Positions 57,571 through 62,756 of a stretch of 64,000 nucleotides of DNA are shown piece after piece (position 1 is the stretch's first letter; every line of letters begins with the position of its first letter). Source of the stretch: Procambarus clarkii (Eukaryota; Arthropoda; Malacostraca; Decapoda; Cambaridae); assembly GCF_040958095.1 (NCBI RefSeq), contig NC_091214.1, positions 6,961,100 to 7,025,099 of the forward strand. The letters are read 5' to 3'. The position numbers and the translations under genes were made by a program. The notes beneath the pieces are model-generated. The model worked only from the letters and a program-made list of their open reading frames with translations. It did no database searches and had not been told where the DNA came from.

Positions 57571-59075
57571 GCGAACAAGCCTGAATGGTCCCCAGGACAA
57601 TATGCAACTGAAAACTCACACCCCAGAAGTGACTCGAACCCATACTCCCAGGAGCAACGCAACTGGTATGTACAAGACGCCTTAATCCACTTGACCATCA
57701 CGACCGGACATAATGAGGTGATAGCCGAGGCTATTTGAACCACCCCACCGCCGGCACTCGGATAGTAATCTTGGGCATAGCATTTTACCAAATCACCTCA
57801 TTCTTTGGGGCACACGTGAGGAACACAAATGCGAACAAGCCTGAATGGTCCCCAGGACAATATGCAACTGAAAACTCACACCCCAGAAGTGACTCGAACC
57901 CATACTCCCAGGAGCAACGCAACTGGTATGTACAAGACGCCTTAATCCACTTGACCATCACGACCGGACATAATGAGGTGATAGCCGAGGCTATTTGAAC
58001 CACCCCACCGCCGGCACTCGGATAGTAATCTTGGGCATAGCATTTTACCAAATCACCTCATTCTTTGGGGCACACGTGAGGAACACAAATGCGAACAAGC
58101 CTGAATGGTCCCCAGGACAATATGCAACTGAAAACTCACACCCCAGAAGTGACTCGAACCCATACTCCCAGGAGCAACGCAACTGGTATGTACAAGACGC
58201 CTTAATCCACTTGACCATCACGACTGGACATAATGAGGTGATAGCCGAGGCTATTTGAACCACCCCACCGCCGGCACTCGGATAGTAATCTTGGGCATAG
58301 CATTTTACCAAATCACCTCATTCTTTGGGGCACACGTGAGGAACACAAATGCGAACAAGCCTGAATGGTCCCCAGGACAATATGCAACTGAAAACTCACA
58401 CCCCAGAAGTGACTCGAACCCATACTCCCAGGAGCAACGCAACTGGTATGTACAAGACGCCTTAATCCACTTGACCATCACGACCGGACATAATGAGGTG
58501 ATAGCCGAGGCTATTTGAACCACCCCACCGCCGGCACTCGGATAGTAATCTTGGGCATAGCATTTTACCAAATCACCTCATTCTTTGGGGCACACGTGAG
58601 GAACACAAATGCGAACAAGCCTGAATGGTCCCCAGGACAATATGCAACTGAAAACTCACACCCCAGAAGTGACTCGAACCCATACTCCCAGGAGCAACGC
58701 AACTGGTATGTACAAGACGCCTTAATCCACTTGACCATCACGACCGGACATAATGAGGTGATAGCCGAGGCTATTTGAACCACCCCACCGCCGGCACTCG
58801 GATAGTAATCTTGGGCATAGCATTTTACCAAATCACCTCATTCTTTGGGGCACACGTGAGGAACACAAATGCGAACAAGCCTGAATGGTCCCCAGGACAA
58901 TATGCAACTGAAAACTCACACCCCAGAAGTGACTCGAACCCATACTCCCAGGAGCAACGCAACTGGTATGTACAAGACGCCTTAATCCACTTGACCATCA
59001 CGACCGGACATAATGAGGTGATAGCCGAGGCTATTTGAACCACCCCACCGCCGGCACTCGGATAGTAATCTTGGG
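57571..59075 (-). repeat. 260-bp SINE-derived satellite, left array
   Basis: GCGAACAAGCCTGAATGGTC recurs at 57571, 57831, 58091, 58351, 58611 and 58871, giving 5.8 head-to-tail units of exactly 260 bp that differ by hardly a base (for example at 58225). Each unit holds, on the minus strand, a class II tRNA-like region (details under the right array). The array ends abruptly at 59075. Confidence 0.95.
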
Positions 59076-59123
59076 AAGAGTGCACCACCCCACCGAGTGC
59101 CGGCGGTGGGGTGGATAGTAATG
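59076..59123. other. palindrome centre between the two satellite arrays
   Basis: The 48-bp spacer includes CACCACCCCACCGAGTG and GCCGGCGGTGGGGTGG, themselves inverted relative to each other, so the switch of orientation involved short inverted sequences. It is the loop of a palindrome with arms over 1.2 kb. Confidence 0.85.
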
Positions 59124-62100
59124 GTCCTGGGGACCATTCAGGCTTGTTCGCATTTGTGTTCCTCACGTGTGCCCCAAAGAATGAGGTGATTTGGTAAAAT
59201 GCTATGCCCAAGATTACTATCCGAGTGCCGGCGGTGGGGTGGTTCAAATAGCCTCGGCTATCACCTCATTATGTCCGGTCGTGATGGTCAAGTGGATTAA
59301 GGCGTCTTGTACATACCAGTTGCGTTGCTCCTGGGAGTATGGGTTCGAGTCACTTCTGGGGTGTGAGTTTTCAGTTGCATATTGTCCTGGGGACCATTCA
59401 GGCTTGTTTGCATTTGTGTTCCTCACGTGTGCCCCAAAGAATGAGGTGATTTGGTAAAATGCTATGCCCAAGATTACTATCCGAGTGCCGGCGGTGGGGT
59501 GGTTCAAATAGCCTCGGCTATCACCTCATTATGTCCGGTCGTGATGGTCAAGTGGATTAAGGCGTCTTGTACATACCAGTTGCGTTGCTCCTGGGAGTAT
59601 GGGTTCGAGTCACTTCTGGGGTGTGAGTTTTCAGTTGCATATTGTCCTGGGGACCATTCAGGCTTGTTCGCATTTGTGTTCCTCACGTGTGCCCCAAAGA
59701 ATGAGGTGATTTGGTAAAATGCTATGCCCAAGATTACTATCCGAGTGCCGGCGGTGGGGTGGTTCAAATAGCCTCGGCTATCACCTCATTATGTCCGGTC
59801 GTGATGGTCAAGTGGATTAAGGCGTCTTGTACATACCAGTTGCGTTGCTCCTGGGAGTATGGGTTCGAGTCACTTCTGGGGTGTGAGTTTTCAGTTGCAT
59901 ATTGTCCTGGGGACCATTCAGGCTTGTTCGCATTTGTGTTCCTCACGTGTGCCCCAAAGAATGAGGTGATTTGGTAAAATGCTATGCCCAAGATTACTAT
60001 CCGAGTGCCGGCGGTGGGGTGGTTCAAATAGCCTCGGCTATCACCTCATTATGTCCGGTCGTGATGGTCAAGTGGATTAAGGCGTCTTGTACATACCAGT
60101 TGCGTTGCTCCTGGGAGTATGGGTTCGAGTCACTTCTGGGGTGTGAGTTTTCAGTTGCATATTGTCCTGGGGACCATTCAGGCTTGTTCGCATTTGTGTT
60201 CCTCACGTGTGCCCCAAAGAATGAGGTGATTTGGTAAAATGCTATGCCCAAGATTACTATCCGAGTGCCGGCGGTGGGGTGGTTCAAATAGCCTCGGCTA
60301 TCACCTCATTATGTCCGGTCGTGATGGTCAAGTGGATTAAGGCGTCTTGTACATACCAGTTGCGTTGCTCCTGGGAGTATGGGTTCGAGTCACTTCTGGG
60401 GTGTGAGTTTTCAGTTGCATATTGTCCTGGGGACCATTCAGGCTTGTTCGCATTTGTGTTCCTCACGTGTGCCCCAAAGAATGAGGTGATTTGGTAAAAT
60501 GCTATGCCCAAGATTACTATCCGAGTGCCGGCGGTGGGGTGGTTCAAATAGCCTCGGCTATCACCTCATTATGTCCGGTCGTGATGGTCAAGTGGATTAA
60601 GGCGTCTTGTACATACCAGTTGCGTTGCTCCTGGGAGTATGGGTTCGAGTCACTTCTGGGGTGTGAGTTTTCAGTTGCATATTGTCCTGGGGACCATTCA
60701 GGCTTGTTCGCATTTGTGTTCCTCACGTGTGCCCCAAAGAATGAGGTGATTTGGTAAAATGCTATGCCCAAGATTACTATCCGAGTGCCGGCGGTGGGGT
60801 GGTTCAAATAGCCTCGGCTATCACCTCATTATGTCCGGTCGTGATGGTCAAGTGGATTAAGGCGTCTTGTACATACCAGTTGCGTTGCTCCTGGGAGTAT
60901 GGGTTCGAGTCACTTCTGGGGTGTGAGTTTTCAGTTGCATATTGTCCTGGGGACCATTCAGGCTTGTTCGCATTTGTGTTCCTCACGTGTGCCCCAAAGA
61001 ATGAGGTGATTTGGTAAAATGCTATGCCCAAGATTACTATCCGAGTGCCGGCGGTGGGGTGGTTCAAATAGCCTCGGCTATCACCTCATTATGTCCGGTC
61101 GTGATGGTCAAGTGGATTAAGGCGTCTTGTACATACCAGTTGCGTTGCTCCTGGGAGTATGGGTTCGAGTCACTTCTGGGGTGTGAGTTTTCAGTTGCAT
61201 ATTGTCCTGGGGACCATTCAGGCTTGTTCGCATTTGTGTTCCTCACGTGTGCCCCAAAGAATGAGGTGATTTGGTAAAATGCTATGCCCAAGATTACTAT
61301 CCGAGTGCCGGCGGTGGGGTGGTTCAAATAGCCTCGGCTATCACCTCATTATGTCCGGTCGTGATGGTCAAGTGGATTAAGGCGTCTTGTACATACCAGT
61401 TGCGTTGCTCCTGGGAGTATGGGTTCGAGTCACTTCTGGGGTGTGAGTTTTCAGTTGCATATTGTCCTGGGGACCATTCAGGCTTGTTCGCATTTGTGTT
61501 CCTCACGTGTGCCCCAAAGAATGAGGTGATTTGGTAAAATGCTATGCCCAAGATTACTATCCGAGTGCCGGCGGTGGGGTGGTTCAAATAGCCTCGGCTA
61601 TCACCTCATTATGTCCGGTCGTGATGGTCAAGTGGATTAAGGCGTCTTGTACATACCAGTTGCGTTGCTCCTGGGAGTATGGGTTCGAGTCACTTCTGGG
61701 GTGTGAGTTTTCAGTTGCATATTGTCCTGGGGACCATTCAGGCTTGTTCGCATTTGTGTTCCTCACGTGTGCCCCAAAGAATGAGGTGATTTGGTAAAAT
61801 GCTATGCCCAAGATTACTATCCGAGTGCCGGCGGTGGGGTGGTTCAAATAGCCTCGGCTATCACCTCATTATGTCCGGTCGTGATGGTCAAGTGGATTAA
61901 GGCGTCTTGTACATACCAGTTGCGTTGCTCCTGGGAGTATGGGTTCGAGTCACTTCTGGGGTGTGAGTTTTCAGTTGCATATTGTCCTGGGGACCATTCA
62001 GGCTTGTTCGCATTTGTGTTCCTCACGTGTGCCCCAAAGAATGAGGTGATTTGGTAAAATGCTATGCCCAAGATTACTATCCGAGTGCCGGCGGTGGGGT

Positions 62101-62756
62101 GGTTCAAATAGCCTCGGCTATCACCTCATTATGTCCGGTCGTGATGGTCAAGTGGATTAAGGCGTCTTGTACATACCAGTTGCGTTGCTCCTGGGAGTAT
62201 GGGTTCGAGTCACTTCTGGGGTGTGAGTTTTCAGTTGCATATTGTCCTGGGGACCATTCAGGCTTGTTCGCATTTGTGTTCCTCACGTGTGCCCCAAAGA
62301 ATGAGGTGATTTGGTAAAATGCTATGCCCAAGATTACTATCCGAGTGCCGGCGGTGGGGTGGTTCAAATAGCCTCGGCTATCACCTCATTATGTCCGGTC
62401 GTGATGGTCAAGTGGATTAAGGCGTCTTGTACATACCAGTTGCGTTGCTCCTGGGAGTATGGGTTCGAGTCACTTCTGGGGTGTGAGTTTTCAGTTGCAT
62501 ATTGTCCTGGGGACCATTCAGGCTTGTTCGCATTTGTGTTCCTCACGTGTGCCCCAAAGAATGAGGTGATTTGGTAAAATGCTATGCCCAAGATTACTAT
62601 CCGAGTGCCGGCGGTGGGGTGGTTCAAATAGCCTCGGCTATCACCTCATTATGTCCGGTCGTGATGGTCAAGTGGATTAAGGCGTCTTGTACATACCAGT
62701 TGCGTTGCTCCTGGGAGTATGGGTTCGAGTCACTTCTGGGGTGTGAGTTTTCAGTT
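59124..62756 (+). repeat. 260-bp SINE-derived satellite, right array
   Basis: About 14 units of 260 bp in opposite orientation to the left array, almost identical to it and to each other (one visible change near 59409). Each unit contains TGTCCGGTCGTGATGG, the A-box-like TGGTCAAGTGGATTAAGGCG, a variable-arm-like CAGTTGCGTTGCTCCTGGGA and the B-box GGGTTCGAGTC (first at 59341-59351). This is a Leu/Ser-type tRNA-derived head and so probably a SINE. The last unit breaks off after GTTTTCAGTT into (TA)n. Confidence 0.95.

Follow-up and report, generated by a model that had tools for sequence, protein, structure and literature searches.

Palindromic arrays of a SINE-like 260-bp unit with two exact ends in (AT)n microsatellites of Procambarus clarkii

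Introduction

How does a dispersed retroelement become a satellite? This is an open question for which few direct links are available, and it is raised by a palindromic array in a 64,000-nucleotide stretch of the Procambarus clarkii genome (C65:6961100-7025099 of the 4.03-Gb assembly; this whole stretch is what we call the window). Here, near-identical 260-bp units with boxes of the RNA polymerase III (Pol III) type run head to head away from a common centre and stop on both sides in (AT)n. We found the array in the window to be real, with many thousands of others like it in the genome. Their pattern suggests that both sides of a break serve as starting points for the outward copying of a mobile element with tRNA-type boxes, and that a palindromic satellite is built in this way. 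With a probability of about 0.5 we ascribe the arrays to an element resembling short interspersed nuclear elements (SINEs), whose RNA, multimeric or circular, would be the template for reverse transcription starting on both strands of an (AT)n target that has been broken. The palindrome is most plausibly a feature of the insertion process rather than the result of a later fold-back. All genome-wide counts given below are plain sequence-pattern matches, with the mismatch limit stated for each count.

Results and Discussion

Tandem Repeats Finder reported a period of 260 twice, with 5.8 copies at 57569-59075 and 14.0 copies at 59124-62756, together with (AT)n at 57438-57570 and 62756-62832, bordering both arms. 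Read to the base, the minus-strand arm A (57571..59075) has the unit 3' end, GTTCGC|AT, as its outer end and meets the left (AT)n, target or tail (57438..57570), at 57570|57571. The plus-strand arm B (59124..62756) runs outward to CAGTT|AT at unit position 223, beside the right (AT)n (62757..62832). Anchors in the box region occur six times on the minus strand at the left and 14 times on the plus strand at the right, with every spacing exactly 260 bp. The first-pass annotation had described head-to-head 260-bp arrays of 5.8 minus and about 14 plus units around a 48-bp centre, with the boxes pointing outward in homogeneous arms; the repeat finder and the anchors agree with this description to the base. 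Indeed, compared with the repeated unit, a single mismatch was found among the 1,505 bases of the minus arm and another among the 3,633 of the plus arm, so that both arms together carry two substitutions in 5,138 bp. The centre (59076..59123, 48 bp) consists of a GC-rich hairpin amid a patchwork of unit pieces with alternating strands. Outside the two (AT)n runs the flanks are, by eye, unlike each other, and we could therefore rule out that the window locus is a fold-back of a whole read. In the rest of the window a sensitive BLASTN search gave a single 12-bp match at chance level and no further copy of the unit.

The unit itself carries an A-box-like motif (TGGTCAAGTGG, 59285..59295 on the plus strand in the first plus unit) and a B-box-like motif (GGTTCGAGTCA, 59342..59352, same strand and unit), which both recur every 260 bp. 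Each matches its consensus at 10 of 11 positions; the two best matches are separated by 57 bp, and their score was reached by 2 of 2000 first-order Markov shuffles. Pol III-type boxes are thus supported. The class II tRNA character that had also been proposed for them was not confirmed, and neither was a cloverleaf: ARAGORN found no tRNA in the window, Rfam matched no family there at the gathering threshold, hammerheads and tRNA included, the Rfam tRNA model gave no match within 59100-59700 even at E<=10, and the box region folds no better than its shuffles. A class II tRNA origin is hence beyond what the data show. The unit 3' end includes GGGGACCATTCAGGCTTGTTC and adjoins (AT)n.

How widespread is the unit? 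A 34-base pattern from the box region gave 46,992 forward and 46,139 reverse matches genome-wide (<=3 mismatches), and the joint between two units gave 137,587 (<=2 mismatches), which, at one unit per joint, would amount to about 36 Mb, 0.9% of the genome. A second array (L004) starts 9.6 kb upstream of the window and has at least 17.7 units, which are about 91% identical to the window unit. On the left this array stops at the (AT)n|GCGAAC junction also seen in the window, and on the far side it ends in a run of N. Among its 16 complete units one contains an indel and two contain one substitution each; these few differences indicate that the arrays are homogeneous internally and divergent between loci. 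Runs of N of exactly 5000 bases were seen at L003:3501-8500, L004:5001-10000 and L006:2855-7854. When 10-kb stretches were taken by place from other contigs, one of 15 (L006) held a relative of the unit, an older, diverged and truncated copy with an (AT)n-rich end (907-991, 81% identical over 86 bp). At L051 a single copy of about one unit length, which begins at the unit start, sits inside (AT)n; it is the sole single copy that was read to both ends. An exact 20-base unit pattern had no match in viral_contigs.

Dispersed copies and further arrays, which the first-pass annotation had proposed to look for, therefore exist (L051, L006 and the 137,587 joints), although few single copies were seen. 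The outcome that by its own account would have refuted it, a unit that is never dispersed, was thus not observed. Its picture of a dispersed SINE turned satellite stands as far as a SINE-like repeat with boxes and homogeneous arrays at many loci is concerned, while the tRNA head was not confirmed. We believe with moderate confidence that the unit represents a young SINE-like family that uses (AT)n microsatellites as insertion sites and has a 260-bp unit, an A- and a B-box, and a 3' end GTTCGC with an (AT)n tail behind it. Any target-site duplication would be masked by the (AT)n.

The arrays mostly end in (AT)n at two places, as read at five C1 loci, in the window, at L004 and at C1:975003. End A follows directly after GTTCGC, which is the unit 3' end. 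End B follows after CAGTT at unit position 223, where an intact unit continues with GCATATTG. The two sites are 35-37 bp apart in the unit, and the 35-nt segment between them (59637..59671, plus strand, in one of the units) has GC at both its ends. The unit contains a single ATAT, at 226-229, 2 nt from B. We counted six kinds of (AT)n junction genome-wide with <=1 mismatch, and the reversed-pattern control was 0 in all six. End A (GTTCGC|AT) was found 19,881 times and end B (CAGTT|AT) 13,516 times, as compared with 188 B junctions in which the GC is kept (48 of them exact), 17 cases of a different AT-bearing unit site, 21 of the unit 5' end and 17 of one internal 5' truncation. ATAT microhomology as the whole cause of end B was rejected on the contrast between 188 and 13,516. 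That the unit 5' end is barely commoner at (AT)n than an internal truncation (21 versus 17) is expected if the template has no fixed 5' end. If simple inserts are spread evenly over the 260 positions, they extrapolate, from two positions only, to about 4,400-5,500; on the same two positions, these simple inserts and the B ends together come close to the number of A ends, and inverted inserts would make up about two thirds.

If end B arises by a recurrent process, the second subfamily, which is of the L004 type with units CATTCGCATAT, should end in CATTC|AT. This was predicted ahead of the search, and 3,065 such ends were indeed found genome-wide (controls 0), so that the subfamily has an end of its own at the same nucleotide as B. 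An inherited end that mutates in parallel with its units could, with low probability, also give this result.

Next, the pairing of ends was analysed on C1 between 0.9 and 35.3 Mb, with the exact-match ends among the matches listed (100 A, 65 B and 16 subfamily-B) and neighbours within 12 kb; the pairing figures given from here on hold among these listed matches. Divergent neighbours comprised 44 A-B pairs, 2 A-A pairs and no B-B pair (n=46), next to 8 convergent and 7 same-strand neighbours. One might suppose that two independent insertions entered one (AT)n run, one per side, by two kinds of RNA with unlike 3' ends. (AT)n is self-complementary and offers both strands as equal targets, and ends of either type are plentiful. 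If the end types were independent, however, about 12.5 A-A, 23.0 A-B and 10.5 B-B pairs would be expected, against 2, 44 and 0 observed, and at L053 and L054 both arms carry the same private variants (see below), so that we regard two insertions as very improbable. The subfamily-B ends follow the same trend, as 12 of the 16 pair divergently with an A end; when the subfamily is left out, the divergent pairs are 33 A-B, 3 A-A and no B-B. Likewise without the subfamily, 34 of the 65 B ends have a divergent A mate, while random positions gave a mean of 1.06 and a maximum of 6 in 2000 runs, and flipped strands gave 1. The window fits in, with its left arm ending in A and its right arm in B.

This A-B pairing also bears on fold-back replication, which the first-pass annotation had suggested next to rolling-circle-like amplification. 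In a scheme of this kind a one-armed SINE array inserts first; fold-back DNA replication, together with unequal crossing-over and gene conversion between the arms, then inverts and lengthens it. The nearly identical arms of the window are in line with it, as are the template-switch patchwork of the window centre and one locus, L055, whose flanks are inverted copies beyond the array, just as fold-back predicts. Yet fold-back would place the same outer end, A, on the second arm too, and 44 of 46 divergent pairs among the matches listed are A-B and only 2 are A-A; on this count, snap-back copying of one arm was ruled out as the general cause. Additionally, small inserts are already inverted, since 14 of the 44 listed A-B distances are below 520 bp, and among the 100 listed joints, which form 15 clusters, we saw nine divergent strand switches and no convergent one. 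We therefore consider a later inversion improbable. In tiny inserts, such as L056, the A and B ends are 69-79 bp apart.

To characterize the centres, 12 loci were read around them (the window, L050 and L052-L061); for L050, L060 and L061 one or both ends lie outside the piece read and were placed from the genome-wide end matches. Ten of the 12 loci are of the A-B type, L055 is A-A, and L052 combines a B end with a second arm that is 15-16 bases long. The centres all differ between loci except for L055 and L054, which lie about 6 kb apart and have a common flank and centre (522 bp identical with L055 reversed). The two A ends of L055 (C1:5813500-5814600) are flanked by sequences that are inverted copies of each other and that recur at L054 (C1:5819800-5821250). 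The common flank and centre mark L055 as a rearranged or mis-assembled relative, that is, either a real inverted duplication or an assembly chimera. In favour of an assembly or fold-back read artefact one may cite the difficulty of assembling palindromes and (AT)n runs, and the L055 flanks, which lie in inverted copy near L054 with a centre common to both. As an explanation for the arrays in general such an artefact is hardly credible, because both ends and their divergent order recur along C1 and in thousands genome-wide, and because the flanks at the window locus differ. By eye, the same AT-rich repeat adjoins (AT)n at two unrelated sites, in the right flank of L051 and in the left flank of L053, so that some target microsatellites seem to be part of another repeat family.

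The main rival is a foldback-type DNA element of the kind exemplified by Foldback, TU and Galileo. It would transpose as a whole palindrome with inherited ends A and B into AT/TA dinucleotides, with its tandem-repeat arms and centre being rearranged. Such an element fits the two exact ends, one of each in 44 of the 46 divergent pairs among the matches listed, the rarity of the unit 5' end at (AT)n (21) and the exact loss of GC at B, which resembles an inherited end; the centre common to L055 and L054 even shows that whole-element copying occurs, at least locally. What it does not fit are the independent centres, the tiny inserts and the subfamily end. All other centres read differ, and the A-B distances are evenly spread modulo 260 (Rayleigh p 0.36, n=34 including two doubtful pairs), so that the copies are not descendants which gained or lost entire units. 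The ends A and B, separated by 35-37 bp in the unit, are not mirror images and do not form matching terminal inverted repeats; inserts with ends 69-79 bp apart (L056) leave no room for a working element, and the second subfamily has its own B end, although an inherited end may have changed in parallel. Taken together, we consider this rival unlikely. A Helitron was rejected as well, the array ends not looking like Helitron ends in a comparison made without a dedicated tool.

The arms themselves are consistent with one common template. In the loci compared, private variants are found in both arms: L053 has one in three of three plus and three of three minus units, and L054 has two, each in every unit that covers the site. 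The two arms of a locus thus either share a template or were homogenised afterwards. At the inversion junctions, local alignment gave an overlap of 0-6 or a filler of 1-2 nt in nine of the ten A-B loci, and the window has its patchwork, of 45 nt, instead. The short inserts L057-L060 already cross a tandem joint, so that the template was probably multimeric or circular from the start. At L057 and L059 the two arms can be placed one behind the other along a single dimer RNA, which leaves gaps of about 9 and 22 nt. We infer that the template is an RNA, multimeric or circular; rolling-circle amplification would look the same here as a multimeric RNA.

How could such an insert arise? The template would be an RNA of several head-to-tail units, or a circular RNA, and both sides of a broken (AT)n target would start reverse transcription on it. 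Since (AT)n is its own reverse complement, both broken strands would offer the same primer. The first DNA end would start at the RNA 3' end and give end A, and the second would start at a fixed internal site 35 nt upstream, beside the only ATAT of the unit, and give end B. Both cDNAs would be extended toward the 5' side of the RNA, where end joining would unite them. The expected outcome is two head-to-head arms of one unit, with two unlike outer ends and a new centre each time. Read-through of an array, RNA circles, template jumps or later unequal exchange might supply the tandem units, and long arms may additionally lengthen by later unequal exchange. The partner enzyme would presumably be a non-LTR (lacking long terminal repeats) or Penelope-type reverse transcriptase, and the swap from GC to AT at B may come from a mispaired (AT)n primer or from a start that is set by the enzyme.

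This scheme resembles the twin priming of L1. Twin priming predicts divergent arms that stem from one template and tile on a single RNA, with one outer end of each type and centres that vary, and the 44 of 46 divergent pairs among the matches listed that are A-B have its features, namely a 3' part in sense, an inverted 5' part and ends at the RNA 3' end and at an internal site. One may go a step further and propose, tentatively and with the odds somewhat against it, that a single insertion makes the palindromic satellite. Circular or multimeric SINE RNA would be copied simultaneously from both strands of self-complementary (AT)n at two enzyme-defined starts, so that tandem structure and inversion are born together at thousands of loci.

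Several observations weigh against copying from both sides of the break. Many ends stand without a divergent opposite-type mate within 12 kb, among the matches listed 56 of 100 A, 33 of 65 B and 4 of 16 subfamily-B ends, and mates that carry a mismatch, and so fall outside the exact-match list, account for these only partly. A-A pairs exist (the 2 of 46 listed), L052 has one non-standard end, and the array at C1:907406 has no (AT)n within the 1.5 kb read on its 5' side. End B always has AT where the unit has GC, and simple annealing to ATAT does not account for this swap. At L056 and L058 the arms overlap on a monomer, which makes a single linear monomer impossible as the template. TTTT shortly downstream of the B-box may act as a Pol III stop, which would speak against long transcripts by this polymerase. 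The 35-nt 3' segment of the window unit folds no better than shuffles (z-scores of +0.58 and +0.25 in two stretches). The inner ends of arm A, in turn, count partly in favour of such copying. They fall at 54 (window), 230 (L050), 222 (L053), 150 (L054), 203 (L056), 233 (L057), 185 (L058), 246 (L059), 244 (L060) and 46 (L061). Five of these ten lie at 222-246, just downstream of the B site, against a chance of 25/260 (binomial 0.0014), or four of ten when L053 is set to 211 by local alignment (binomial 0.011), but the interval was picked after eight loci, and of the two read later L060 fits and L061 does not.

Two further ideas about the copying step were given up. A jump across an RNA hairpin stem would leave the inner ends of the two arms in register; measured around the 260-nt unit, these ends are about 2 to 121 nt apart, and no such signal was seen. 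A conserved 3' stem-loop as a recognition site was rejected on the folding of the window segment. In L006 the stretch 898-950, beside the (AT)n-rich end, forms a strong stem (z -4.31), whereas a longer stretch without part of the stem gives z +0.36.

Beyond the array, the window contains other repeats. Two copies of a long interspersed nuclear element (LINE) at 2202-8512 and 32254-38555 are 95% identical over 6.3 kb; the frame of the first has endonuclease, reverse transcriptase and RNase H domains, and this copy adjoins a telomere-type (GGTTA)n repeat at 1979-2138. Among many duplicated blocks, a coding stretch for an FR47-like acetyltransferase is found at 24408-25604 and 46157-47354 (90% identical). 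A G-rich minisatellite of the GTGGCGG type (48480-51382) is followed by one of the CTCTTACTCTCAATCA type (51757-53797) with strongly opposite GC skew. At 54777-54904 and 55057-55184 a 128-bp sequence is repeated without any difference and in the same orientation, accompanied by AT runs at 54700-54778 and 55185-55282.

In summary, insertions of this element are marked by ends that are exact to the base, about 20,000 of type A and 13,500 of type B. The inserts that were read vary in size between less than 100 bp (L056) and more than 5 kb (window). As inversion and tandem structure are already present in the small ones, the step could be tested by insertion assays.

Comparison with Known Systems

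Foldback, TU and Galileo have long inverted repeats made of tandem subrepeats and a variable centre. In the arrays described here, by contrast, the outer arm ends differ from each other and the unit contains Pol III-type boxes. Metazoan retrozymes are short, tandem, non-autonomous retroelements that are perhaps copied from circular RNA. The crayfish arrays differ from these in that no Rfam family, hammerheads included, reaches the threshold in the window, and a hammerhead retrozyme was rejected for this reason.

Tandem repeats with tRNA-like stretches are known from amphibians, namely PolIII/TAN in newts, OAX in Xenopus, Rana/polIII and Hy/polIII in Hydromantes (summarized in PMC10702118). Their units of about 200-360 nt resemble ours, although the OAX unit is longer and the tRNA origin of Hy/polIII is doubted; unlike here, that summary describes neither palindromic arms nor (AT)n ends. 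Surveys of repeats in crayfish and other decapods describe satellites as abundant (24.7% minisatellites in Pontastacus) and SINEs as scarce on the whole, with a recent peak of SINEs in two Procambarus species (PMC7859515, PMC10454600), and the stem "palindrom-" occurs in the main text of neither. Among the titles listed by the open library that was searched, none dealt with palindromic SINE arrays whose fixed ends lie in (AT)n. Both SINE-derived satellites and twin priming have been described before; it is their combination for which no report was listed there.

The change from SINE to satellite is already in print for the squamate satellites sSat1-3 (Vassetzky et al. 2023, PMC10702118). Like our arrays, these are tandem repeats, there derived from a SINE with a tRNA head, which are homogeneous per locus and occur at many loci with few to hundreds of units. 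Their units of about 70-290 nt are always shorter than the SINE, whereas the single copy at L051 is about as long as our unit. The main text of that paper does not use the terms palindrom-, inverted, head-to-head or twin priming, while the arrays here have inverted arms and two exact ends in (AT)n.

The second parallel is the twin priming or 5' inversion of L1, in which two target ends prime on one RNA (Kojima 2010, PMC2912911). It shares with our loci the inverted 5' part and an inversion junction with short overlap. The data given there list 5'-inverted copies for 639 of 2068 L1 insertions, one Alu and 4 of 477 SVA, so that 5' inversion of a SINE-like element is rare in these primate data (one Alu). 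In the crayfish, by contrast, a SINE-like element has an exactly fixed second site, and each arm is a tandem array. Inversion is also frequent, as 44 of the 100 A ends among the matches listed have an inverted B mate. The crayfish arrays thereby provide a large natural set for the study of twin priming in a SINE-like element.

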